From positions 89,541 to 153,540 of the forward strand of contig NZ_BSTR01000006.1 of assembly GCF_030269645.1 (NCBI RefSeq): a stretch of DNA of 64,000 nt, in the 5' to 3' direction. Shown in pieces: positions 9,649 to 38,922 of this stretch. This DNA comes from Actinokineospora sp. NBRC 105648 (GTDB taxonomy: Bacteria > Actinomycetota > Actinomycetes > Mycobacteriales > Pseudonocardiaceae). The stretch's first letter is position 1, and every line of letters starts with the position of its first letter. The position numbers were made by a program, and so were the translations under genes. The notes below the pieces were generated by a model. It searched no databases. It saw only the letters and a list, made by a program, of their open reading frames with translations, and was not told the DNA's origin.

Positions 9649-11436
9649 TCAGGCAGCCGGTGGGGTGCTGAAGGGAGCGCTCCACGTCTGGTTCGGTTGG
9701 TAGCTGCCGCAGCTGTAGGTGGCCACGGTCGCGTTCACGTTGTCCAGGGCGCCGCCCGCGATGTCGGCGCACAGCCCGTTCGCCTTGAGCTGGCCCGCGC
9801 GGTTGTAGGTCCACGTCTGCTTCGCGTCATTCGCGTTGCAGGCGGCCAGTTTCAGGCCCGTGGTCTCGCCGGAGACGCACAGGCCGGTGTTGGCCAGCGA
9901 CGCGATCTGGCCGTTCGCCTTGCGCTGCCACTGCTGGTTGTTGTTGCCGGTGCAGCCGTACAGGCCGACCGAGGCACCCGCGGTGGCGCCGCCGTGGGCG
10001 TCCAGGCAGAAGGCGGCGGCCTGGAAACCGGGCTGGGCGGCCTGGATCTGACCGACCGGGAGCGCCGCGCCGCAGTTGCCCGCGGCGATCGTGTACATCG
10101 CGTTGTCGTGCGCGGGGATGGTCGTGGTGATCGAGGCCGTCACCTGGCTCGTGGTGTGCGTCCACAGGTTCTTGGCCGACCGGGCGCAGGTGAGGTTCCC
10201 GAACCCGACCCGCGCCAGGTCGATGGTGTAGTTGGTGCTGCTGGTGCCCTTGTTCAGGACCGTCACCGCGCGGGCGCCGTTCGCGAGCGGCTTGACGACC
10301 ACGTCCACGCCCGGCGACCGCGAGGCCAGGTAGCCGCCCGCGGTGGTGTCCTGGTCCACGGCGATGATGTCGGCGTTCTTCAGGATGCCCAGCTGGGTCG
10401 CGTACGCGGTGGGGTCGGCCGCCATCCTGCGGACGTCGGTGCTGATCATCAGCGGCGAGCCCATCGCCGACCACAGCGCGAACTGGCTGCGCTGCTCGGC
10501 GATGGTGAGCTGGTTGTTGTCGCCGATCAGCAGCATGTCGGCGTCGTTGTGGTTGCCGGGGCCGTTGTAGCGGGCGAGGGCGACGGTGTCGGTGAGGTTC
10601 TGCAGGACGCCGCCCTCGTAGTAGTCGGCGCCGTGCTGCCAGTCCCACGCCGAGGCCGGGTTCGCGTGCCACACGGCGATGTCCGGGCTCACCCGCCACA
10701 TCTGGCCGAGACCGCGCACCCAGTCCATCGTGCGGTACTTCTCCGCCTGCGCGGGCGAAGCGCCCGCGGGCGCGGACTCGTTGAAAAGGATCTTGCGCGG
10801 GTTGTTGGCCGTCGCCGCGCCGAGCGCCCTGGCCGTGGCGGTGAACTCCTGCTGCCGGTTGTCGAACGTCGTGCCGCAGTTGTCCAGCTTGAGCGAGTCG
10901 ACGCCCCAGTAGGCCAGCGAGTTCGCGTCGGCCTGCTCGTGGCCCTGCACGCCGCCGGGCACGCCCTGGCAGGTGTTGACGCCGGACGTGCTGTAGAGCC
11001 CGGTCTCCATGCCCTGGGAGTGGACGTAGTCGGCGTAGTCGGTCAGCTCCCAGTCGAACCCGGGCTGCGAGCTGCCGCCCCAGTTCGCCGCGCCGTGCAG
11101 GTAACCCGCGCTGGTGCGCTGCATCCAGCAGTCGTCGACGGTGAGGTTGGTGTAGCCGGCCGCGACCAGCCCGGTGTCCTTCATGGCCTTGGCCTGGTCC
11201 TGCATGAACTGCTGGAACGAGTACCCGGTGCGGGTCCCGTCGAGCCTCGCCTGGGCGGCGCAGGTGAACCTGGCCCAGTTGTTGAAGCCCATCATCGGCT
11301 TGACGCCGATCGCGGTGGAGGTGTTGGCGGCGATCGGGTCCGCGATCGCGGGCGGCCCGCTGTCCAGCACCGTCACCGCCGTGATCACCGCCAGGACCGC
11401 GTACCCGAAACCGAACGCCACGTGCTGCCTCGCCAT
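9649..11436 (-). CDS. secreted GH27 alpha-galactosidase with C-terminal ricin-type lectin domain
   Basis: A 595-residue exported glycosidase. Start chosen at ATG 11436 (MARQHVAFG) because GGGAGC lies just upstream. A signal peptide spans residues 1-32. The GH27 barrel begins at TPMMGFNNW-like VKPMMGFNNW (residue 46 on). The nucleophile is Asp185 in SLKLDNC and the acid/base is Asp252 in WRVSPDI; the family motif around NHNDADML is at 295-302. A beta-sandwich domain follows, then a CBM13/ricin-B domain (about 475-595) with Q-x-W repeats (QQWQ, QTWT, QTWS). It would remove alpha-linked galactose from plant polysaccharides or oligosaccharides outside the cell. It is divergent from another ricin-domain protein gene, with inverted repeats between them. 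Confidence 0.92.
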   Translation of the reverse strand: MARQHVAFGFGYAVLAVITAVTVLDSGPPAIADPIAANTSTAIGVKPMMGFNNWARFTCAAQARLDGTRTGYSFQQFMQDQAKAMKDTGLVAAGYTNLTVDDCWMQRTSAGYLHGAANWGGSSQPGFDWELTDYADYVHSQGMETGLYSTSGVNTCQGVPGGVQGHEQADANSLAYWGVDSLKLDNCGTTFDNRQQEFTATARALGAATANNPRKILFNESAPAGASPAQAEKYRTMDWVRGLGQMWRVSPDIAVWHANPASAWDWQHGADYYEGGVLQNLTDTVALARYNGPGNHNDADMLLIGDNNQLTIAEQRSQFALWSAMGSPLMISTDVRRMAADPTAYATQLGILKNADIIAVDQDTTAGGYLASRSPGVDVVVKPLANGARAVTVLNKGTSSTNYTIDLARVGFGNLTCARSAKNLWTHTTSQVTASITTTIPAHDNAMYTIAAGNCGAALPVGQIQAAQPGFQAAAFCLDAHGGATAGASVGLYGCTGNNNQQWQRKANGQIASLANTGLCVSGETTGLKLAACNANDAKQTWTYNRAGQLKANGLCADIAGGALDNVNATVATYSCGSYQPNQTWSAPFSTPPAA

Positions 11437-26317: not shown

Positions 26318-27799
26318 ATGGATACTTCCGGAGAACCGCCCGCACGCGGCGCGTCGCATGGAGGAGAGGGGCGTCAATTGGGTGCGGGGTCCTCGGACGG
26401 CTCGGATAGTGCTGTCCACGACGTCTCGGGCGACCGGGACGGCCGAGATATCGCCGTGGTGGGCGCCGGGTTGTCCGGGTGCCTGATGGCGGTGCTGCTC
26501 GCCCGGCGCGGGTACCGGGTGCGGGTGTTCGAGCGCAGGCCCGACCCGCGCGTCCGCGGCGGCGACCACGGCCGGTCGATCAACCTGGGGCTGTCCCAGC
26601 GGGGGATCACCGCGCTGCGGCACGCCGGACTGCTCGACCAGGTGCTCGCGCACGCCGCGCCGATGCGCGGCCGGGTGGTGCACCTGCCAGACGGGAGCCT
26701 CGGCTACCACCCCTACGGCACCAGCGACGACCAGATCCTGCGGTCGGTGCTCCGCCACGACCTGAACGTGATCCTGCTCGACGCCGCCGAGGCCGCGAAC
26801 GTGGCGCTGCACTTCGGCGCCCGCCTGACCGACCTCGACAAGGGGAGCGACAAGGGCGGCGACAAGGGTGCTGGCGACACCCCGGTGACGCTGCGGTTCG
26901 AGGACGGCACGGTGGTCGAGGCGGGCACCGTGATCGGCGCCGACGGCGCGTTCTCCACCGTGCGGGCGCGGATGCAGCGCGGCGAGCCCGCCGACTACCA
27001 CCAGGAGTTCTTGCCCTGGGGCTACAAGGAACTCGCCATCGCGGCGGGCGCGGTCGGTGACCGGCGCGCGGACCCGGAGGCGCTGCACGTCTGGCCCGCC
27101 GACGACGGACTGGTCGTCGCGCACCCGAACGCCGACCGGTCGCTCACCGGGACGATCTTCCTCCCGCTGACCGGCCCGGGCGGCTTCGACGCGCTGCGCA
27201 CCCCCGAGGCGGTGCGCGCGTTGGTCACCGAGCGCTTCCCGGACCTGACCGGCCTGGTGCCCGACGTCGTGGCGCAGTTCCTCAGCCAACCGACCGGTCA
27301 CCTGGTGACCGTGCGCACCTCGCAGTGGCACTGGCGCGGCCGCGTGGTGCTGCTCGGCGACGCCTGCCACGCGGTCTACCCGTTCTACGGGCAGGGGATG
27401 AACTCCGCGTTCGAGGACTGCGTGACCCTCGACGGCTGCCTCGAGCGCCACCCGGCCGACCACGGCGCCGCTTTCGCCGCGTACCAGGCGATCCGCAAGG
27501 TGGACACCGACGTGCTGGCGGACCTGTCCGCGGCCAACTTCGTCGAGCTGCGCGACCGGTTGTCCTCACCGCTGTTCCTGGCCCGCAAGAGGGCCGACCT
27601 CGCGCTCAACCGCCTGCTCGGCCGCCGGTGGGTGCCGCTCTACACGATGATCGCGCACACCACGACGCCCTACGCCGAGGCCCTGCGGCGCTCCCGCAGG
27701 CAGAACACGACTCTCGGCTGGCTCGCGGGCGCCACCGCCACCGCCGCGGCCGCCGCGGGGACCTTGCTGGTTCGCCACCTGTCGCGTCAGGGGAAATGA
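26318..27799 (+). CDS. FAD-dependent monooxygenase, kynurenine 3-monooxygenase-like
   Basis: A 493-residue flavoprotein if started at ATG 26318; TTG 26378, preceded by GAGGAGAGGGG, is a credible shorter start. The Rossmann motif AVVGAGLSGCLMAVLLARRG (about 46-65) is followed by GRSINLGLSQRG, the kynurenine-monooxygenase version of the GR motif. The second FAD motif GDACHAVYPFYGQGMNSAFEDC also fits KMO. A C-terminal hydrophobic stretch (TTLGWLAGATATAAAAAGTLLV) could anchor it, as in KMO. The likely reaction is NADPH-dependent 3-hydroxylation of kynurenine or a related aromatic. As first gene of the NRPS operon it probably makes or tailors a tryptophan-derived building block (inference). Its stop overlaps the next start (ATGA). 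Confidence 0.85.
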   Translation: MDTSGEPPARGASHGGEGRQLGAGSSDGSDSAVHDVSGDRDGRDIAVVGAGLSGCLMAVLLARRGYRVRVFERRPDPRVRGGDHGRSINLGLSQRGITALRHAGLLDQVLAHAAPMRGRVVHLPDGSLGYHPYGTSDDQILRSVLRHDLNVILLDAAEAANVALHFGARLTDLDKGSDKGGDKGAGDTPVTLRFEDGTVVEAGTVIGADGAFSTVRARMQRGEPADYHQEFLPWGYKELAIAAGAVGDRRADPEALHVWPADDGLVVAHPNADRSLTGTIFLPLTGPGGFDALRTPEAVRALVTERFPDLTGLVPDVVAQFLSQPTGHLVTVRTSQWHWRGRVVLLGDACHAVYPFYGQGMNSAFEDCVTLDGCLERHPADHGAAFAAYQAIRKVDTDVLADLSAANFVELRDRLSSPLFLARKRADLALNRLLGRRWVPLYTMIAHTTTPYAEALRRSRRQNTTLGWLAGATATAAAAAGTLLVRHLSRQGK

Positions 27800-28476
27800 T
27801 GCTCACCAACGCCAACGACCCCGACAGACTCCTGCTCGAGGTCGACGACATCGAGGACGACCTCCTCCCGTCCGCCCTCGCGCCCTACCGGGCGCAGCTG
27901 CGCACCATCCTGGACTGGGCCCGGCAGTACCTCGCCCGGCCGCACGAGAGCCTGGGCAGGCGGGGGAGCGTGTGCCCGTTCGTCCAGTCCTCTTTGGACC
28001 GGGGCCGGTTCTACCTGGCCGTCTACCCCGGCCACCCGGCCGATCCCCGGGCGGTCGCCGAGGCGGTGCTGCCCTACCGGGACTGGTTCCTCGAGCTGGC
28101 GCCGAACCCGTCCGGCACGGCCCAGCTCACCACCATCCTGGTGCTCTTCCCCGACCTGCCCGCCCAGGACGTCGACCGGATGATCGACGGCTCGCAGGAG
28201 GCCCTCAAGACCGACTACGTGGACCGGGGCCTGATGATCGGCGAGTTCCACGACGGCCCGCCGGACAAGGCCGGGCTGTGGAACCCGGACTTCCGGCCGC
28301 TGCGCAGCCCGGTGCCGCTGCTGGCGATCCGGCACATGGTGCCGACCGACTTCGCCTTCCTCGCCGGCAACCGCGACCACGCGTCGGCCTACCTGCGCCG
28401 GTTCGCCGGTGAGCTGCCCGCGTTCGTCCGCGAGGCGATGGTGCGCGCCCTCGTCCGCGAACAGGTGGCCCTGTGA
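27796..28476 (+). CDS. conserved protein of unknown function (DUF6875-like) in NRPS operon
   Basis: A 226-residue soluble protein. ATG 27796 overlaps the preceding stop by 4 nt (ATGA), and its own stop overlaps the NRPS start (GTGA), so it is translationally coupled at both ends. Conserved-looking parts are LRTILDWARQYLARPHESLGR, GSVCPFVQSSLDRG, LVLFPDLPAQDVDRMID and NRDHASAYLRRFAGELP. The pattern CPFVxxSL and the IRHMVxTDxxFL segment match what I recall of DUF6875 proteins, which occur in natural-product operons. No signal peptide or membrane helix is visible. The reaction is unknown; position argues for a role in making or releasing the peptide. Confidence 0.6.
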   Translation: MMLTNANDPDRLLLEVDDIEDDLLPSALAPYRAQLRTILDWARQYLARPHESLGRRGSVCPFVQSSLDRGRFYLAVYPGHPADPRAVAEAVLPYRDWFLELAPNPSGTAQLTTILVLFPDLPAQDVDRMIDGSQEALKTDYVDRGLMIGEFHDGPPDKAGLWNPDFRPLRSPVPLLAIRHMVPTDFAFLAGNRDHASAYLRRFAGELPAFVREAMVRALVREQVAL

Positions 28477-31400
28477 CCCCGCCCGGCGCCGATCCCGGTT
28501 CCGGTGTGGTCGCCCCGCAGTCCTTCGCCCAGCGGCGGATGTGGTTCCTCGACGCGCTCTACCCGGACTCGGCGCTCTACAACGTCCCGGTCTCGGTCCG
28601 GGTGCGCGGCCCGCTCGACCTGACCGCGGTGCGCGGCGCGGTCGAGGTGCTGGTGGCCAGGCACGACGCGTTGCGCACGGTGTTCGCCGACCACGACGGC
28701 GAACCGGTGCAGATCGTGCGACCCGCCGGCGCGGCGGGCGTGACCCCGGTGGACGTGGTGGCGGTGGCCGACCCGGCCGACATCGAGCGGCTGACGCTCG
28801 CCGAGGCCCGCCGCCCGTTCGACCTCTCGGCGGGCCCGCTGCTGCGCGTCCTGGTGCTGCGGCTCGCCGCCGACGACCACCACCTCATGATCACGCTGCA
28901 CCACATCGTCACCGACGGCTGGTCCCAGGCCGTGCTGTTCGGCGAGCTCGGCGCCGCCTACGCCGCGCTGGTGCGCGGCGAGGTGCCCGCCCTGCCGCCG
29001 CTTCCGGTGACCTACGCCGAGTTCACCCGCTGGCAGCGTCAGGAGGCGGAGAGCCCGCTCGGTGAGATGTCCCTGGAGTTCTGGGCGGACGCGCTGCGCG
29101 GCGCGCCCGAGCTGCTCGCCCTGCCGACCGACCGGCCGCGGCCCGCCACCCAGTCGTTCGAGGGGGCCGTGCACCGGCGGGTGCTGCCGTCGGCGGCGAT
29201 CAAGGCCGCGCTGCCCGGGCTGGGCGGCACGATGTACATGGTGCTGCTCGCGGCGTACCAGGCGCTGCTGGCGCGCTACAGCGGTCAGGACGACATCGTG
29301 GTGGGCACCGCGGTCACCGGACGGACGCGACCGGAGGACGAGCCGCTGGTCGGCCTGTTCGTCAACACGATCCCGTTGCGCACCTCCCTGGCGGGTGACC
29401 CGACCTTCCGCGAGCTGGTGGCGAGGGTGCGGGACGTGGCGCTCGACGGGATGGGCTACGCGGACGTGCCGCTGGAGCGGATCGTCGCCGCGGTCACGCC
29501 GTCGCGGGGCCAAGGGCACGCCCCGGTGTTCCAGGCGGGGTTCACCCTGACCAACACCCCACCCGCCCGGCTTGAGCTGGCCGGGACGGTGGTGTCGGAG
29601 CCCGAGTTCGTCCACTCCGGCACCGCGAAGATCGACCTGACGGTGGGCGCCCTCGAGGTCGGCGACGAGATCATCGTGGACTTCGAGTACGACGTGGCGC
29701 TGTTCGACCCCTCGACCATCGAGCTGTTCGCCGACCGGTTCGCCCGGTTCACCGCCGCCGTGGTCGCCGCGCCGGACACCCGCGTGCGGGACGTCGACCT
29801 GACCACCGACGCGGAACGCGCCCTGATCAGTGGCGGGGACTTCTCCCCGGCGCCGCTGGTGCCGGGCCTGATCGCCGCGCGCGCCGCGGTCGCGCCGGAC
29901 GCCGTCGCGGTGGTCGACGGGGATCGGGTGCTGACCTACGGCGAGTTGGCCCGCCGGGCCAACGCCCTGGCGTGGCGGCTGCGCGAACTCGGTGTCGGCC
30001 CGGAAACCATTGTGGCGCTTGGGTTCCCCGCGAGTGTCGAGGCCATCGTGGCCATCACCGGGATCCACGCCGCGGGCGGCGCGTACCTGCCGGTCGACCC
30101 CGCGCACCCGGCCGACCGGCTGGCCGCGCTGCTGGCCGACGCGGCCCCCGAGGTGTTGGTGACCAACCGGCCCGAGGCGTTCCCTGGGTTCACCGGGCCG
30201 GTGCTCGCGGTGGGCACCGACGAGCGGGAGAAGCCGCCGCCGACCGGGCTCGACCGCGACCACCTCGCGTACGTGATCTACACCTCCGGCTCCACCGGCG
30301 CGCCCAAGGGCGTCGCGGTGCAGCACGGCACGCTGGCCAACCTCGCCGCCGCCTTCGCCGCCGCGCACCCGTTCGGCCCCGACGACCGGGTGCTGATGAT
30401 CCCGCCGCTGACCTTCGACGCCTCCGCGGGCGACGTGTTCCCCGCGCTGATCAGCGGGTCGGCGCTGGTGCTCTGCCACGACCCCGCGGCGCTGTCCGGC
30501 GCCGACGTGCTGCGCCTGTGCGCGGACAAGGGCATCACGATGGTCGACACCGCGGCGCCGTTGTGGCGCAAGTGGGTGGACGACCTCGCCGCGACCGGTG
30601 TTCCCGGCCCGTCGCCGCTGCGCACGATGATGGTCGGTGGCGACGCCGTCGATGTCGCCGCTGTGCGCGAGTGGACGGCGCTGACCGGTGCGACCCTCGT
30701 CAACCACTACGGCCCCACCGAGGGGACCGTGTGCGCCACCCTGCACACCGTGGTCGGCGACGAACCCGGCACCCGGCTGCCGATCGGCAGGCCGCTGCCG
30801 CACGTGCGCGCGTACGTCCTCGACGACAACCTGCGGCCGGTCCTGACCGGGTTGCCCGGCGAGCTGTGCCTCGGCGGGGACACCCTCGCCCGCGGCTACC
30901 TGGGGCGCGGCGACCTCACCGCCGCGCGGTTCGTCCCGGACCCGTTCGGCCCGCCGGGATCGCGGCTCTACCGCACCGGCGACCTGGCCAGGTGGCGGTC
31001 CGACGGGGTGCTGGAGTTCCTCGGCCGGGTCGACCGGCAGGTCAAGATCCGCGGCCACCGGGTCGAGCCCGCCGAGATCGAGGCGGCCTGCCGCGCGCAC
31101 CCCGAGGTCGCCGACGCGCTCGTCGTCGCGCGCCCCGACGAGCTGGGCGACCAGCGCCTGGTCGCCTACCTCGTCCCGGACCACCCGGCCGACCTGCGCG
31201 CGGTGCTGCGCGCGGCGCTGCCGGAGTACCTGGTGCCCGCCGAGTTCGTCGGCCTGGCCCGGTTCCCGGTGACCGGGAGCGGGAAGCTCGACGTCGCCGC
31301 GCTGCCGGACCCGGTGCGGCGGCCCAGGTCCGCGGTGCCGCCGCGCTCGGCGACCGCCCGCGTGCTGGCCGCCGAGTGGGCCGCGCTGCTCGGGGTGGAC

Positions 31401-32765
31401 GCCGTCGGCGAGGACGACGACTTCTTCGCGCTGGGCGGGCACTCGCTGCTGGCCGCGCGCATGATCACCCGGGTCCGACTGGCCCTCGGCGTCGACGTCC
31501 CGCTGCGCGCGGTGTTCGACGCTTCCTCACTCGGTGAGCTGGCCGCGATCATCGACCGCCAAGCTCCCGCCGCCCACGTCGACCTGCGCGCGGAAACCTT
31601 GCTACCTAACGACATCCGACCTGTCACCGCACCGGACGCGGTCGACCGGGCCTGCTCGCCTGCCGCGATCCTGCTAACCGGGGCAACCGGCTTCCTCGGC
31701 GGGTACCTGCTCGCCGATGCCTTGGAGCACACGACCGCGCGGGTGTATTGCTTGGCGCGCGCGGACTCGGCGGCCGACGCGTTGGCCAGGATCGAGCGCG
31801 GGCTGCGCGGGTACGGGCTCTGGACGCCGTCGGCGGCCGAGCGGATCGTGCCGGTGCCCGGCGACCTGGGCGCGCCCCGGCTCGGCCTCGACGAGGACCG
31901 GTTCGACGAGCTGTCCCGCTCGGTCGACCTGATCGTCCACTGCGGCGGGACTGTCCACTTCGCACAATCCTATGCGGAGCTCAAGGCCGCCAACGTGTCC
32001 GGCACGATCGAGGTGCTCCGGCTGGCCACCCGGCACGGCGGCGTCCCGGTGCACTTCGTCTCGACGCTCGGGGTGTACCCGCTGCACCTGCCCGGGACGG
32101 TCACCGAGGACCAGGCGCCGCAGCAGCCCGAGCAGCTCGACCGGGGCTACGAGCAGACGAAGTGGGTCGCCGACGTGCTGGTCCGCGCCGCCCGGGAAGC
32201 CGGTCTGCCGGTCAGCGTCCACCGCCCGGCGCGAGTCACGGGCGACAGCCGCACCGGTGCTAGCTCCGGCGCCGACCTCTTCGCGGGCGAGCTACGCGCG
32301 ATCACCGCGCTCGGTGCGACCCCCGACCTCGACGTCGCCGAGGACATGGCCCCCGTCGACCACGTGGCCGCGGCGATCGGCTGGCTGACCCGCCAGCCGT
32401 CGGCCTACGGCCAGGACTTCCACTTCTACAACGGCCGCACGATCAGCTCGTCCGCGATAGCCGAGACACTGCGCGACTACGGCTACCCGGTACGCGAGGT
32501 CCCGTACGCGCAGTGGTACGAGGACTTGCTCACGGCAGCGGCTGCGTCGGGCGACCCGGCACTGTCGGCGATAGCGGCGGCCTCCGGCCCGGTCCCGGAC
32601 GTCCGCGTCCGGGAGTTCGACTGCACCGCGACCGAGACCCGCCTCGCCACGGGCGGCATCGTCTGCCCACCCGCCGACCCGACGCTACTGCGCGGATACC
32701 TGGACCACTTCGTACGGACCGGAACCCTCCCCGCCCCCACCGCGGCGGTGTCGCGTGCACACTGA
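28473..32765 (+). CDS. non-ribosomal peptide synthetase, C-A-T-R (reductive release)
   Basis: A 1430-residue NRPS from GTG 28473 (GTGA overlap). Domains: condensation (about 14-455; HHIVTDG at 143-149), adenylation (about 465-955; A3 core [11 protein letters not shown] at 603-613, A8 near [11 protein letters not shown]), thiolation (about 965-1035; Ser991 in GGHSLL) and thioester reductase (about 1065-1430; GATGFLG at 1070-1076; catalytic Tyr1226 and Lys1230 in YEQTK). Aligning by eye to GrsA gives a pocket D-A-G-D-M-G-H-V-C-K, which I cannot assign to a substrate. The reductase would release the peptide as an aldehyde or alcohol, so this is probably the last module, acting after the MT-C-A-T protein. 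Confidence 0.93.
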
Positions 32766-33156
32766 CGAGACCGACGGCCAGACCAGAGAACCCGCGAACC
32801 CCGGCCTGGTCTCCGATCCCGGAGCTGTCCACAACCAAGATCATCGAGGCCCCGTCATGTCGGCCCCACCCGGTAGCATGGATATCGGGGGGACGGCGGC
32901 CGCCCTCGATCTCGCCGGGCCCCGATCCGCCGCCGCTCATGCGAAGCGCCGCATCCCACCCGACCAGGCACCAGCTCGTGCCCGGTACCCCGCCGAACTC
33001 GCCGGGAGCGGCATCGACCACGGGACTGCCGTGTGTGGGCCAAGGCGCGCAGAGGGCGTTGCGCGTGGTTCGGGCGTTCGGGTTCCGCCTGCGGTCGCGC
33101 ACCCGCGCCACCCGGCGCGGACGGGCCACCTCACGGCGGTGTCGCGTGCGCACTGA
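32755..33156 (+). CDS. junction ORF 1: small ORF duplicating the NRPS/exporter junction
   Basis: A 133-residue ORF with no recognisable domain. It starts at GTG 32755, overlapping the NRPS stop by 11 nt, and stops at 33156, overlapping the exporter start by 11 nt. Its start (GTGCACACTGACG) copies the exporter start (GTGCGCACTGACG at 33146), and its end (TAVSRAH, stop) copies the NRPS end (AAVSRAH, stop). The middle is rich in Pro/Arg/Ala and looks non-globular. It seems to be a duplicated, drifted junction rather than a normal gene, but the coupling geometry would let it be translated. A GTGTCGCGTGC core is shared by both copies. Confidence 0.45.
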   Translation: MHTDETDGQTREPANPGLVSDPGAVHNQDHRGPVMSAPPGSMDIGGTAAALDLAGPRSAAAHAKRRIPPDQAPARARYPAELAGSGIDHGTAVCGPRRAEGVARGSGVRVPPAVAHPRHPARTGHLTAVSRAH

Positions 33157-34501
33157 CGGCATTGGCCGCTTCGCCGCGATCTGGGCCGGGCAGCTCGTCT
33201 CGATCGCCGGCTCCGGGATCACCGGCTTCGTGCTCGGCGTCTGGGTCTTCCAGCTCACCGGGTCGGCCACCCGGTTCGGCCTGATCATGCTGCTGGAGGC
33301 GGCGGCGGCGATCGCGGTGGCGCCGGTCGCCGGGATGGCCGTCGACCGGGTCGACCGGCGGGCGGTCCTGGTGGTCTCCGACGTCGTGGCCGCCGCGGCG
33401 ACCGCCGTGCTGCTGGCGCTCGTCGCGGGCGGTGGTCTGCGGGTCTGGCACGTCTACCCGATCGCCGCGGCGACCGCGATGTGCGCGACGTTCCGGATGG
33501 TCGCGTTCACCACGGTGCTCCCGCTCCTCGTGCCCGAGCGGCACCTCGGCCGTGCCAACGGCCTGGCGCAGACGCTGCCCGCGGTGCAGATCGCCGCCCC
33601 GCTCGCAGCCGGCGGCCTGCTCGCGGCGGTGCAGCTGCGCGGGGTGGTGCTGATCGACCTGTGCACCTACGCCGTGGCACTCGCGATCACCCTGCTGATC
33701 GGCCTGCCGGAGCGGGCGATCCGCCCGGACCGCGCCGGGTCGGCCGGGGAGGGCGCCTGGGCGGAGCTGACCGGCGGGTGGCGCGAGCTGCGCCGCAGGC
33801 CGGGCCTGCCGCACCTCCTACTGCTACTCGGCGGTTTCCACCTCGCCGCCGGGATGGCCGGGGTGCTGGTCCAGCCCCTGATCCTGACCTTCGCCGGCCC
33901 CTCGACCCTCGGCGTGCTGATGTTCGTCGGCGGCGCGGGCATGTTCGCGGGCAGCGCGGTGATGACCGCGTGGGGCGGCCCGACCCGCCGGATCACCGGC
34001 GTCCAGGTGTTCCTCGCGATCGGCGGGATCGCCCTCGCACTGCACTCGCTCGCCCCGTCGGCCCTGCTCATCGGGGTGCTCGCGCCCGCGTTCCTGTTCA
34101 CCCTGCCGGTGATCACCGGCAGCGCCATGTCGTTGCTGCAGACCAAAGTCGACCCAAGCGCACTCGGCCGCGTGATGGCCGGCGTGCGGATGACCGCCCA
34201 GGGCGGCACCGCCCTCGGCTTCGCCGCCGCGGGACCACTGGCGGACCTGGTCTTCGAGCCGCTGCTACGACCGGGCGGCGCCCTCGCCGGGTCGGTCGGC
34301 ACAGTGATCGGCGTGGGGGATGGTCGGGGGATCGCGCTGATCTTCGCCATCACCGGCGCCGCACTCATCGCCCTGGCCGCCTGGGCCGCCACCTCGCCCG
34401 TACTGCGCGCCGTCGACGACCTCCCCGACCTGCTGACAACACCGGACGACAACACGCCAACCGACAAGGGGGAAGCCGATGCTCGAACAGTTGCGGGCTG
34501 A
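33146..34501 (+). CDS. MFS exporter of the NRPS operon
   Basis: A 451-residue membrane protein; GTG 33146 (VRTDGIGRFAAIWAGQLVS) is the natural MFS start. About 11-12 helices can be drawn, with the MFS loop motif DRVDRRAVLVVSD between helices 2 and 3 and a basic central loop. It is closest in style to EntS/TMEM205-like MFS_3 exporters, in which FAAIWAGQLVSxxGSGITGFVLGVWVFQLTGS is typical in form. The gene lies between the two NRPS genes and is coupled to small ORFs on both sides. Likely role: export of the peptide product or self-protection. The C-terminal tail ends DKGEADARTVAG, and this is copied at the end of junction ORF 2. Confidence 0.88.
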   Translation: MRTDGIGRFAAIWAGQLVSIAGSGITGFVLGVWVFQLTGSATRFGLIMLLEAAAAIAVAPVAGMAVDRVDRRAVLVVSDVVAAAATAVLLALVAGGGLRVWHVYPIAAATAMCATFRMVAFTTVLPLLVPERHLGRANGLAQTLPAVQIAAPLAAGGLLAAVQLRGVVLIDLCTYAVALAITLLIGLPERAIRPDRAGSAGEGAWAELTGGWRELRRRPGLPHLLLLLGGFHLAAGMAGVLVQPLILTFAGPSTLGVLMFVGGAGMFAGSAVMTAWGGPTRRITGVQVFLAIGGIALALHSLAPSALLIGVLAPAFLFTLPVITGSAMSLLQTKVDPSALGRVMAGVRMTAQGGTALGFAAAGPLADLVFEPLLRPGGALAGSVGTVIGVGDGRGIALIFAITGAALIALAAWAATSPVLRAVDDLPDLLTTPDDNTPTDKGEADARTVAG

Positions 34502-34937
34502 CCGCCAGCCCCCCGTCAACGGCGCCCGACCTCGTGGACACACTGCCCTTCCGCGCAGCCGAGCACACGGCCTGCCTACCGCCGGTAGCCTGCGGACCGC
34601 AGTGATCGAGGGGTTGGTGCCCGAGTCGCGGTGGATAGACCACCGGACCTCCGCGAATAGCGCTCGGCCTCATGGAAACGCTGCCCTTTCGCGCGGTGGG
34701 AGCCGAGCACACGGCCTGCCTTCCGCCGGCAATCCGCGGACCGTGCTGATCGAGAGGTCGGTGCTCGAGTTGCCCTGGGTCGGCCACCGGACTTCCGCGA
34801 ATAGTGCCGGGTCTCGTGGTGGCGCTGTCCTTCCGCGCGGTCGGAACCGCCTTTCCGCCGCCCGGCCCGCCGTCGACAACCTGTCCACCACACTGATCGA
34901 CAAGGGGGAAGCCGATGCTCGAACTGCCGCAGGCTGA
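34479..34937 (+). CDS. junction ORF 2: small ORF duplicating the exporter/NRPS junction
   Basis: A 152-residue ORF without a known domain. ATG 34479 overlaps the exporter stop by 23 nt, and its stop (34937) overlaps the MT-NRPS start by the same 23 nt. It starts MLEQLRADRQ, like the MT-NRPS start MLELPQAERQ, and ends LIDKGEADARTAAG, like the exporter end TDKGEADARTVAG. A 27-bp sequence is identical at 34462-34488 and 34898-34924. The interior consists of imperfect 144-bp repeats derived from the first codons of the MT-NRPS gene. Expression is possible through coupling; function, if any, is unknown. Confidence 0.45.
   Translation: MLEQLRADRQPPVNGARPRGHTALPRSRAHGLPTAGSLRTAVIEGLVPESRWIDHRTSANSARPHGNAALSRGGSRAHGLPSAGNPRTVLIERSVLELPWVGHRTSANSAGSRGGAVLPRGRNRLSAARPAVDNLSTTLIDKGEADARTAAG
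34490..34914 (+). repeat. three imperfect ~144-bp tandem repeats copied from the MT-NRPS 5' end
   Basis: Anchor GAGCACACGGCCTGCC occurs at 34561 and 34705 (144 nt apart). CCACCGGAC(C/T)TCCGCG occurs at 34640 and 34784 (144 nt apart). The core CTG(C/T)CCTTCCGCG recurs at 34543, 34681 (one variant base) and 34825, and in the real gene at 34996. The third unit is shorter and more degraded. The repeats look like stepwise tandem duplication of the start of the downstream gene. Confidence 0.85.
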
Positions 34938-37900
34938 ACGCCAGGCTTTCACCGACGGTGCCGCGCCCGCGCCGCACCTGGACCTCGTGCACGCGCTGTC
35001 CTTCCGCGCCGCCGGGGCCGCTCTGCGTCTTGGCGTGTTCGACCACCTCGGTGACGAGTCCCGAACCGCCGACGCCATCGCTGCCGGGATTGGGGGCGAT
35101 CCGCGCGGTGTGCGGGTACTCCTCGACGCCCTAACCGGCTTCGGCTACGCCACCCGGGACGGCTCCGGGTACCGCGCTACCCCGGCTGCGGCTTGGTTGG
35201 GCACCGGCTACCGGTCGGCTTTCTCGTTCTGGCACCGCGTCCTCGTCGACCAGTGGACCGACCTAGAGCAGTCCATTGTGGACGGCAAGCCGGTCGGTGA
35301 CTTCTACGGCTGGCTCGGCGCCGACCCGGCCGCCCTCGGCGAGTTCCAAGCCATGCTCGGCGAGCTGGCCGACGCGGTGGCGCCGGACGTAGCGAGCGCG
35401 GTTCCCGGTACCGCCCGGCGGTTGCTCGACATCGGTGGCGGACACGCCCGCTACGCCACCGCCTGCTGTGCGGCGAACCCCGAGCTGCGCGCCGACGTCG
35501 TAGACCTTCCTGGTTCCCTCGACGCCGGCCGCGCATACGCCGCAGCGGCCGGAGTCGGCGACCGTGTCCGATTCCGGGAGGCCGACTGGTCGACCGGCGA
35601 CCTCGGCGCGGACTACGACGTCGTGCTGGTGTTCAACGTGTTGCACTGCCTGAGCCCCGACCGCGCCGAGGACCTCCTCCGGCGGGCGGCCCGGGCGCTG
35701 CGGCCCGGCGGGACGGTCCTCATCCTGGAGGAGACCGCGGACGTGCCCGCCGAGGCCGGCGCGCTCGGCGCCGCCTGGGTGCCCGCGTCGAGTCTGAACC
35801 TGTTCCACACCCAGGGCGGGCAGATCTACGACCGCGAGCGGTTCGTCGAGTGGCTGGGCCGGGCCGGGCTCGCCGCGCCCGAGGAGGCCCGGATCGCCGC
35901 CGCGCCGACGTTCACCTTGTTCAGCGCCACCAAGGAGAACGCGCCGGGTCGGACGCTGACCGCGGCGCAGCGAAAGATGCTGCTGTTCGACCAGACGCGC
36001 CCGGACTCGACCTGGTGCAACGTGCCGCTCACCGTGCGGATCGCCGGGCCGCTCGACGCCGCCCGGCTGCGGGCGGCCCTGCGGCGGTGCTGGCTGTCGC
36101 ACGAGGCGCTGCGCAGTACCCACGACGGCGACACCGCCATGACCGGCGTCCTCCCGGAACTGCGGGAGGTCACGGTGACCGACGAGGCGGGTTTGGCCGA
36201 GCTGCGAGAGCGGGAACTGCGCACGGGGTTCGACCTGGCACACGAAGCACCGCTGCGAGCGACCTTGGCCCGGCTCGCCGACGACGACCACGAACTGATC
36301 CTGATCACCCACCACATCGCCACCGACGGGTACTCGCTCACCGTTCTGCGGCAGGACATCCTCGACGGGTACGCCGATCCGTCCCGCCCACCGCGGGCCG
36401 CTCACCGCCCAGTGCCCGCCGACGATCACGACGAGGACATCGAGTTCTGGGCCCACACCCTGGCGGACCTGCCGGAGGACACGGCGCTGCCGTTCGCCAC
36501 GCCCGCAGGCCCGTCCCTGGCCGCGGACGTGGTGCCGTTCGAGCTTCCCGACGACGTGACCACCATCGTCCGCGAGGTCGCTCGAAGTGGGCGGTCCAGC
36601 CCGTTCATGGTGCTGCTCACCGCGTTCGGCGTGCTGCTCGACCGGCTCGGTGCGGGCGATGACCTCGTGATCGGCACGCCGGTCGCCGGGCGTGACGCGC
36701 CGGGCAGCGAGGACGTCGTCGACTGCCTGGTGAACATGGTCGCGCTGCGCCTGCGCCTGCGCGGGGCCACCACCTGGGCGGACGCGCTGGACACGGTGCG
36801 GTCGACCGCCCTGGACGCCTTCGACCACACCGGCGCGCCGTTCAGCGAGGTCGTGGACCGGCTGGCCGCGCCCAGGTCGGCGCACCCGCACCCGGTGTTC
36901 CAGGTCGTCTTCGCCGCCCCGCCCGCGGTAGCCGGACCGACTACAGTGGACGGTGTTACCTTCGACTTCGCGCACGGCACCAGCGCCGAGTCGCTCTTCG
37001 ACATCGAGGTGCAGGTCTTCGACGACGGCGACGGCATGGGCGGCTACCTCAAGTTCCGCACGGCCCGCTTCACCCGGGCCCAGATGACCGCGGTGCTGGA
37101 CCAGTTCCGCACCCTGCTCGGCGGGCTCGACCCGACCGCCCGGTTGGCCGACGCAGTCCTGCTCACCCCGGCGGAGCGCCACCGCGCGGTGGTCGAGTGG
37201 AACGCCACCACGACCGACTACCCGCGCGAGCGCACCCTGGTGGAGCTTTTCGAGTCGCGTGTGGACGAACGGCCGGACGCGGTCGCCGCGGTGTACGGCG
37301 CCGAAGTCCTCACCTACCGGGAGCTGGACGAGCGGGCGAACCGGCTGGCCGCGCTGCTGCGCGACCGCGGGGTCGGGCTGGAGGACCGGGTCGGGATCCG
37401 GCTCGGGTTCGGCGCCGGCTGGGTGGTCTCGGCCCTCGCCGTGCTCAAGGCGGGCGCGGCGTACGTGCCGCTCGACCCGCTGTACCCTGCGGCCAGGCTG
37501 GACCACATGTGCGCCGACAGCGGGGTGGCGACCGTCGTCACCGACGAGGTGCTCGGCGAATCGCCCACCTTCCCGGCCGACCGCGCGGTTCGTTGTGCCC
37601 GCCCGGATTCGTTGGCCTACGTCATGTACACCTCCGGCTCCACCGGGCGGCCGAAGGGGGTCGGCGTCACCCACCGCGACATCGTGCGGCTGGTGTGCCG
37701 GACCGACTACGTCCACTTCGGACCGGACGACGCGGTCGCGCAGGTCTCCAGCCCGTCGTTCGACGCGGCCACCTTCGAGCTGTGGGGCCCGCTCTGCGCG
37801 GGCGGCCGGATCGTCGGCGTGCCCAAGGACGACCTGCTGTCCCCACCCGACCTGGCGAAGACGTTGCGGGACAACGGTGTCGCCCTGATGTTCCTCACCA

Positions 37901-38922
37901 CGTCGCTGGCGCGGCGGCTCGCCGCCACCGCGCCGGAGACCGTCGCCGGTCTGCGCCAACTGCTGATCGGCGGGGAGCAGCTGGACGCGGACACCGTGTC
38001 ACGGCTGAGATCCGTGCCCGGCTTGACCGTGGTGAACGGCTACGGTCCAACTGAGACCACCACCTTCGGTGTGACCTGGGCCGCCGGAAGTGTTGTTGCC
38101 GGGGAGGTCGTGCCGATCGGGCGGCCCATCTCGAACAGCACCGCCTACGTCCTCGACGCCTGCCTGGAACCCGTGGCGCCCGGCATGGTCGGGGAGATCC
38201 ACCTCGGCGGTGACGGCGTGGCCCGGGGCTACCTGGGCAGGCCCGGCCTCACCGCGGCCCGGTTCGTGCCCGACCCGTTCGGTGTGCCCGGTTCCCGGAT
38301 GTACCGCACCGGCGACCTCGGCCGGTACCGCCCCGACGGCCTCATCGAGTGCCTCGGCCGGGTCGACCGGCAGGCGAAGATCCGCGGTTTCCGGGTCGAG
38401 CCCGGCGAGGTGGAGACGGTGTTGCGGGAGACCGGGCGCGTGGTGGACGTGACCGTCCAGGTGCGGGTCGAGGAGGAGCTGCTGGTCGGTTACGTCGTGC
38501 CCACCGACCCGGCGGAGTCCATGGCGGATCTGCGCGCGCAGCTCAGTGGACTGCTCCCGGAACACCTGGTGCCCGCGGTGCTGGTCGCGCTCGACGTGCT
38601 CCCGGTGAACCAGAACGGAAAGCTCGACACCGCCGCTCTGCCCGACCCGTTCGCGGCCGCCTTGACCGGGTCCGCCGGGGCCACCGCCGAGCCCACCACG
38701 GACACCGAGCGCGTCGTCCGCGACATCTGGCGCGAGGTCCTCGCCAACCCCGACATCGGCCTGCACGACGACTTCTTCGCCCTGGGCGGCCACTCGGTGA
38801 AGGCCGGGCAGGTGCTCGCCCGGATCCGCGCCGAACTCCGGGTCCCCGCCTCCCTGCGGCTGGTCTTCGACAACCCGACGGTGGCCACCCTGGCCGCCGC
38901 ACTGCCCGTCCCGAGGAGCTGA
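34915..38922 (+). CDS. NRPS with N-terminal O-methyltransferase: MT-C-A-T
   Basis: A 1335-residue fusion from ATG 34915 (AAGGGGGAAG upstream). Residues about 10-335 are an acetylserotonin-type O-methyltransferase: a dimerisation winged helix (LDLVHALSFRAAGAALRLGVFDHL), SAM loop LLDIGGGHARYA near 170-181, and VFNVLHCLSPDRAEDLL. Then condensation (about 345-770; HHIATDG at 466-472), adenylation (about 790-1235; YTSGSTGRPKG at 905-915) and thiolation (about 1250-1330; Ser1294 in GGHSVK). The pocket by eye is D-A-F-F-L-G-G-T-F-K, one change from the valine code D-A-F-W-(I/L)-G-G-T-F-K, so a branched aliphatic residue is likely. There is no release domain; the C-A-T-R protein should act next. A C domain in the first module suggests an acylated or aryl-capped start. 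Confidence 0.92.
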   Translation: MLELPQAERQAFTDGAAPAPHLDLVHALSFRAAGAALRLGVFDHLGDESRTADAIAAGIGGDPRGVRVLLDALTGFGYATRDGSGYRATPAAAWLGTGYRSAFSFWHRVLVDQWTDLEQSIVDGKPVGDFYGWLGADPAALGEFQAMLGELADAVAPDVASAVPGTARRLLDIGGGHARYATACCAANPELRADVVDLPGSLDAGRAYAAAAGVGDRVRFREADWSTGDLGADYDVVLVFNVLHCLSPDRAEDLLRRAARALRPGGTVLILEETADVPAEAGALGAAWVPASSLNLFHTQGGQIYDRERFVEWLGRAGLAAPEEARIAAAPTFTLFSATKENAPGRTLTAAQRKMLLFDQTRPDSTWCNVPLTVRIAGPLDAARLRAALRRCWLSHEALRSTHDGDTAMTGVLPELREVTVTDEAGLAELRERELRTGFDLAHEAPLRATLARLADDDHELILITHHIATDGYSLTVLRQDILDGYADPSRPPRAAHRPVPADDHDEDIEFWAHTLADLPEDTALPFATPAGPSLAADVVPFELPDDVTTIVREVARSGRSSPFMVLLTAFGVLLDRLGAGDDLVIGTPVAGRDAPGSEDVVDCLVNMVALRLRLRGATTWADALDTVRSTALDAFDHTGAPFSEVVDRLAAPRSAHPHPVFQVVFAAPPAVAGPTTVDGVTFDFAHGTSAESLFDIEVQVFDDGDGMGGYLKFRTARFTRAQMTAVLDQFRTLLGGLDPTARLADAVLLTPAERHRAVVEWNATTTDYPRERTLVELFESRVDERPDAVAAVYGAEVLTYRELDERANRLAALLRDRGVGLEDRVGIRLGFGAGWVVSALAVLKAGAAYVPLDPLYPAARLDHMCADSGVATVVTDEVLGESPTFPADRAVRCARPDSLAYVMYTSGSTGRPKGVGVTHRDIVRLVCRTDYVHFGPDDAVAQVSSPSFDAATFELWGPLCAGGRIVGVPKDDLLSPPDLAKTLRDNGVALMFLTTSLARRLAATAPETVAGLRQLLIGGEQLDADTVSRLRSVPGLTVVNGYGPTETTTFGVTWAAGSVVAGEVVPIGRPISNSTAYVLDACLEPVAPGMVGEIHLGGDGVARGYLGRPGLTAARFVPDPFGVPGSRMYRTGDLGRYRPDGLIECLGRVDRQAKIRGFRVEPGEVETVLRETGRVVDVTVQVRVEEELLVGYVVPTDPAESMADLRAQLSGLLPEHLVPAVLVALDVLPVNQNGKLDTAALPDPFAAALTGSAGATAEPTTDTERVVRDIWREVLANPDIGLHDDFFALGGHSVKAGQVLARIRAELRVPASLRLVFDNPTVATLAAALPVPRS

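Follow-up and report, generated by a model that had tools for sequence, protein, structure and literature searches.

How can genes whose stop and start codons overlap take up several hundred bases between them and still keep those overlaps? The question is raised by a natural-product operon on contig C6 of the 8.4 Mb genome of Actinokineospora sp. NBRC 105648 (G000), in which two successive gene junctions each hold a small ORF that overlaps both neighbouring genes. The window analysed here is a 64 000 nt stretch of this contig (NZ_BSTR01000006.1, positions 89 541 to 153 540), and the coordinates given are window positions on the forward strand, on which all of the features described lie. The genes concerned are an NRPS with the domains C-A-PCP-thioester reductase (28473-32765; Pfam Condensation, AMP-binding, PP-binding and NAD_binding_4), an MFS exporter of 451 aa (33146-34501; Pfam MFS_1) and a methyltransferase-NRPS, here MT-NRPS, with the Pfam-assigned domains MT-C-A-PCP (34915-38922). 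The same order, NRPS-exporter-MT-NRPS, is present in four of four congeners, where the exporter orthologues are 71-88% identical. The NRPS/exporter boundary is here called junction 1 and the exporter/MT-NRPS boundary junction 2. As the next junction 5' in the operon, between the gene at 27796-28476 and the NRPS start at 28473, is an ordinary 4 nt stop/start overlap, expansion is limited to some junctions of the operon.

ORF1 (32755-33156; 133 codons, GTG start) is open from the NRPS stop to the exporter start and overlaps each neighbour by 11 nt, and ORF2 (34479-34937; 152 codons, ATG start) spans the interval from the exporter stop to the MT-NRPS start with overlaps of 23 nt at both ends. Both are putative relay ORFs, and the start-to-start distances of 391 and 436 nt are each 1 mod 3. 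In the ORF2 region, each of the two other forward frames contains four stops. The sites at the two ends of each ORF, here called coupling sites, are direct repeats. At junction 1, copy a (32743-32767), which contains the NRPS stop and the ORF1 GTG start, is identical at 24 of 25 positions to copy b (33134-33158), which contains the ORF1 stop and the exporter GTG start. When the whole genome was searched for this site with up to three mismatches, only these two copies were returned. At junction 2, the first copy (34462-34508; exporter stop and ORF2 ATG start) and the last (34898-34944; ORF2 stop and MT-NRPS start) share 42 of 47 positions, with the leading 27 bases matching exactly (27/27). The coordinates and overlap lengths in the preliminary description were thus exact on recheck, and its statement that the ORFs run from junction to junction with copied ends is borne out. 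Its suggestion that the two junctions share one architecture holds in part: both are bridged by an ORF with copied ends, but they do not contain one element, as junction 2 is occupied by an array of junction copies and junction 1 by a mixed spacer.

By sequence comparison, ORF2 is a multiplied exporter/MT-NRPS junction. The segment at 34500-34849 is a decayed tandem array of units composed of the MT-NRPS head and the exporter tail with 138/144 nt spacing (TRF period 144), and positions 34500-34705 match 34638-34849 at 76% (blastn E 4.6e-40). The units match the head of the MT-NRPS gene; at the end of the last one there is also a match to the exporter tail, which is more complete for the exporter of the congener G009 than for that of the same genome. 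No copy of the unit was found elsewhere in the genome. The exact copying of the overlaps is explained by duplication of the junction, for which this array is direct evidence. Each of the array spacings (138, 144, 147 and 171 nt) is divisible by 3, and the only internal indel is 6 nt long. Differences between the repeats fall 15/16/13 by codon position, with pS 0.22 and pN 0.21 (pN/pS about 1); the frame of the array has thus been kept, with the amino acids free to change. Relative to the native MT-NRPS head, and judged from anchor positions, the first unit has lost 17 nt, which brought it in frame with the stop in the exporter tail. The ORF2 frame was therefore not the product of a single clean duplication but arose through a subsequent indel.

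The 366 nt between the junction 1 coupling sites show no similarity to the flanking genes. Positions 32818-32891, continuing to about 32907, match a dispersed intergenic element with dozens of copies in the congeners G009 and G012, and the copy in the ORF1 spacer (32815-32907) is 71-80% identical to many of these. As the spacer includes this dispersed element, it is of mixed origin. With up to three mismatches allowed, the element motif occurs at 75 sites in G009, 49 in G012, 15 in G007, 12 in G005 and none in G006 or G010, and the single site in the genome studied here is the one within ORF1. The element is approximately 80 bp, with the pattern GAGTTGTCCACAGGC..GATC..........TGTCGG..CC..CCGGTAG.ATGGAT..CGGGGGCCGG and the invariant core GGTAG..T.GA..CGGGGG, and the ORF1 copy is well conserved. 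It contains TTGTCCACA, which we take to resemble a DnaA box of the Streptomyces type. Copies lie in loci L118-L132 and L153-L172; in the loci inspected, the element mostly followed a gene of the same orientation and faced the next gene tail-to-tail, often in several copies. An insertion element or transposon was rejected as the source of the spacers, as they have no other copies in the genome and the dispersed-element part alone has copies, in congeners. The exporter frame is also open across spacer 1 (32513-34501, 662 codons), and automatic annotation may therefore add a false N-terminal extension to the exporter. That the spacer is a genuine extension was rejected, as G004 and G009 have a stop immediately 5' of the exporter start.

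To place these junctions against a background, 912 genes predicted by a simple codon-usage caller in 1.25 Mb of the genome were used. Same-strand neighbours separated by 60-1000 nt number 253 pairs, and in each pair the sequence surrounding the stop of the first gene was scored for repeats against that surrounding the start of the second. Scores of 69 and 45 were obtained for the two junctions described here, 29 being the 99.9th percentile for mismatched pairs. They are the only clear cases among the 253 pairs, the scan proposed in the preliminary description having returned no other; one further pair scores 32 and shares a mere 16 bp word. Of 231 other gaps measuring 60-600 nt, 7 contain an ORF that overlaps both neighbours but lacks copied junctions; bridged gaps of this kind are located, for example, at C3:115732-118555 and C2:321636-323640. 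Bridging alone is thus not very rare, and bridging combined with copied junctions is rare in this genome.

The corresponding junctions in the congeners differ in their state. Junction 2 is a plain 23 nt overlap in all four. At junction 1, G010 has a 4 nt overlap and G006 is close-spaced; among more distant relatives in the wider family the junction is close-spaced, mostly with a 4 nt overlap. The closest relatives are G004 and G009, with a nucleotide identity of about 83% and a difference of 34% at fourfold sites. Measured between starts, the junction 1 spacer is 115 nt in G004, where the coupling site is present twice, and 229 nt in G009, where it is present three times; both contain an ORF from a start overlapping the NRPS stop to a stop overlapping the exporter start. 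The comparison with relatives proposed in the preliminary description thus shows simple overlaps at junction 2 throughout and plain junctions at junction 1 in G010 and G006, but spacers at junction 1 in G004 and G009. In G009 (L014:9923-10162), the three coupling-site copies have their starts at 9923, 10073 and 10152, spaced 150 and 79 nt apart, and the ORF from 9923 crosses the second start (10073) in frame and stops at the third (10152). An assembly artefact, raised earlier as a possible explanation, was rejected, as the copies are not identical, with differences of about 4 to 24%, and the relatives have versions of their own. No mutual similarity was detected among the junction 1 spacers of the three species, so they may have a single origin or several. 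All four spacers, 391, 115 and 229 nt at junction 1 and 436 nt at junction 2, are open and 1 mod 3.

With moderate confidence, we favour the explanation that coupling sites were duplicated together with intervening DNA, and that this was tolerated because a relay ORF, whose peptide would be irrelevant, keeps termination-reinitiation coupling intact. Both junctions would originally have been simple coupled overlaps. At junction 2, a segment of exporter tail and MT-NRPS head was tandemly duplicated and later decayed; junction 1 gained a mixed-origin spacer, with the dispersed intergenic repeat among its components. The outer coupling-site copies were retained, and the interior stayed open in the frame that links the first site to the second. 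A ribosome finishing the upstream gene would most likely restart on the relay ORF, make a functionless peptide, terminate at the second site and restart on the next gene, so that coupling would outlast an insertion of about 400 nt. In the systems tested, reinitiation reportedly drops nearly to zero once the gap is about 20 nt (PMC10666635), and an untranslated gap of 380-413 nt should therefore uncouple the genes. Such a relay would account for the bridging of 4/4 spacers, for outer sites that are kept where interiors have decayed, and for a frame conserved without its peptide. The earlier proposal that coupling is kept despite the insertions is plausible, as the G004 and G009 spacers, unrelated in sequence, are also bridged and 1 mod 3. 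Junction duplication, its decay, the frame relation, openness, the absence of constraint on the peptide and the repetition of the arrangement in two congeners are observed; on this explanation the ORFs would also be translated, coupling would depend on them and selection would act on the frame. We see an even chance that it does so in the fuller sense that the frame and openness of the spacer are kept and no amino acid is, giving sequence-free relay ORFs that would have arisen repeatedly in one operon and would let operons absorb insertions without uncoupling.

The weakness of coupling by relay ORFs is statistical, as the chance of openness in a single case is not small, and chance openness in GC-rich DNA is a serious rival. 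The junctions may be neutral scars, duplicated and invaded by intergenic DNA, with the exporter and MT-NRPS using their own ribosome-binding sites and the ORFs open by chance. Both starts are preceded by Shine-Dalgarno-like sequences, strong ones in G004 and G009, from which each gene might be initiated on its own. The codon usage of the ORFs is non-coding, unrelated gaps are bridged at the background rate given above (7/231), and a fresh junction duplication yields a bridging ORF automatically in one-third of cases. Long frames can stay open by chance in GC-rich DNA, and after dinucleotide shuffling the four spacers were open with frequencies of 0.30, 0.074, 0.775 and 0.48 (0.07-0.78 per single case). 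Against chance, all four spacers are open and 1 mod 3, and every array spacing is divisible by 3; with one-third for the frame combined with the shuffled openness, the joint chance is estimated at about 1e-4 for all four, and at 0.04 for the two relatives, which lie outside the selection made in the preliminary description. If the three junction 1 spacers derive from one ancestral event, as they may, these cases are not fully independent. The outer sites are also kept at 27/27 and 24/25, in contrast to interiors that match at about 76% or are unrecognisable. We consider the neutral origin a real possibility, though a less likely one than the relay.

Two further explanations give the spacers a product or a signal. 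That the two ORFs are ordinary genes encoding small proteins would fit their openness, their plausible ribosome-binding sequences and their operon-like overlaps with both neighbours. However, no orthologue was found in the operons of the four congeners, so the conservation as proteins that might have overturned the earlier interpretation is not seen, and the relatives' spacers are unrelated in sequence. GC3 is 0.74 for ORF1 and 0.72 for ORF2 (range 0.68-0.74), compared with 0.92-0.98 for genes in the window, and the codon score of both is negative. Pfam returned no family at its cut-off, a SAP match reaching 18.4 bits against the required 23.9, and pN/pS between the ORF2 repeats is about 1. 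Small protein genes are, on this evidence, scarcely credible. Very unlikely, too, is a regulatory element (a promoter, attenuator or structured RNA) in the spacers to which the ORFs are incidental. The well-conserved copy of the dispersed element, with its invariant core, in the ORF1 spacer points that way, but the element is missing from the other three spacers. Neither it nor the spacers matched an Rfam family, the spacers contain no match to a sigma-70-type promoter or terminator, their folding is not unusual (z -0.44 and 0.50), and the 37 element copies compared have no consensus RNA structure.

The preliminary description knew of no element that behaves as these ORFs would on the relay explanation, but there are precedents in the MIRUs (PMC12548453) and in the coupled small ORFs of mycobacteria (PMC4633059). 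MIRUs (mycobacterial interspersed repetitive units; Supply et al. 1997, as described in PMC12548453 and PMC2734929) are mobile repeats whose insertion at a start codon couples their ORF to the gene by a 4 nt overlap (PMC12548453). In M. tuberculosis, repeats account for 358 bp at the rnc-fpg1 junction, which measures 6-20 bp in several other mycobacteria (PMC2734929). As with MIRUs, the extra DNA at the coupled junctions described here carries an ORF that would be coupled to its neighbour, so that the operon need not uncouple; the ORF ends overlap the neighbouring genes, tandem copies are present, and relatives without the repeat have plain junctions. MIRUs, however, are one dispersed family of 40-100 bp, whereas the ORF2 unit and the junction 1 coupling site are confined to this operon, and only part of the ORF1 spacer belongs to a dispersed family, as its sole copy in this genome. 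The ORF2 spacing is 138-144 nt, ORF1 has no recognised unit, and the spacers of 115-436 nt are mutually unrelated. The overlaps are 11 and 23 nt instead of 4 nt, and the coupling sites are copies of local junctions. The arrangement would thus act like a MIRU, yet it differs in dispersal, unit size and overlap. In the mycobacterial small ORFs, linkage is conserved and sequence is not, and they may serve only to deliver ribosomes (PMC4633059). Their stop overlaps the downstream start, as here, and linkage without sequence conservation is likewise seen in the bridging of junction 1 in three species and the pN/pS of about 1 in ORF2. They are, however, located at the start of leaderless transcripts, and the ORFs described here lie between two large genes and would be coupled at both ends. 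Each ORF end also has the usual stop/start overlap geometry of termination-reinitiation pairs, which usually have one junction per two genes, where the putative relay ORF doubles it (PMC10666635). Our literature search returned no report of tandem duplication at coupled junctions.

Taken together, the junction case is real and unusual for the genome, with its origin explained, a plausible function and clear precedents. If the relay explanation is correct, overlapping gene pairs can move apart by hundreds of bases and remain coupled, and Actinokineospora offers a natural series of 0, 115, 229, 391 and 436 nt in which coupling could be tested against mere spacing. It would also account for some of the ORFs that lie between operon genes without annotation or conservation, and would caution against annotating them as proteins.
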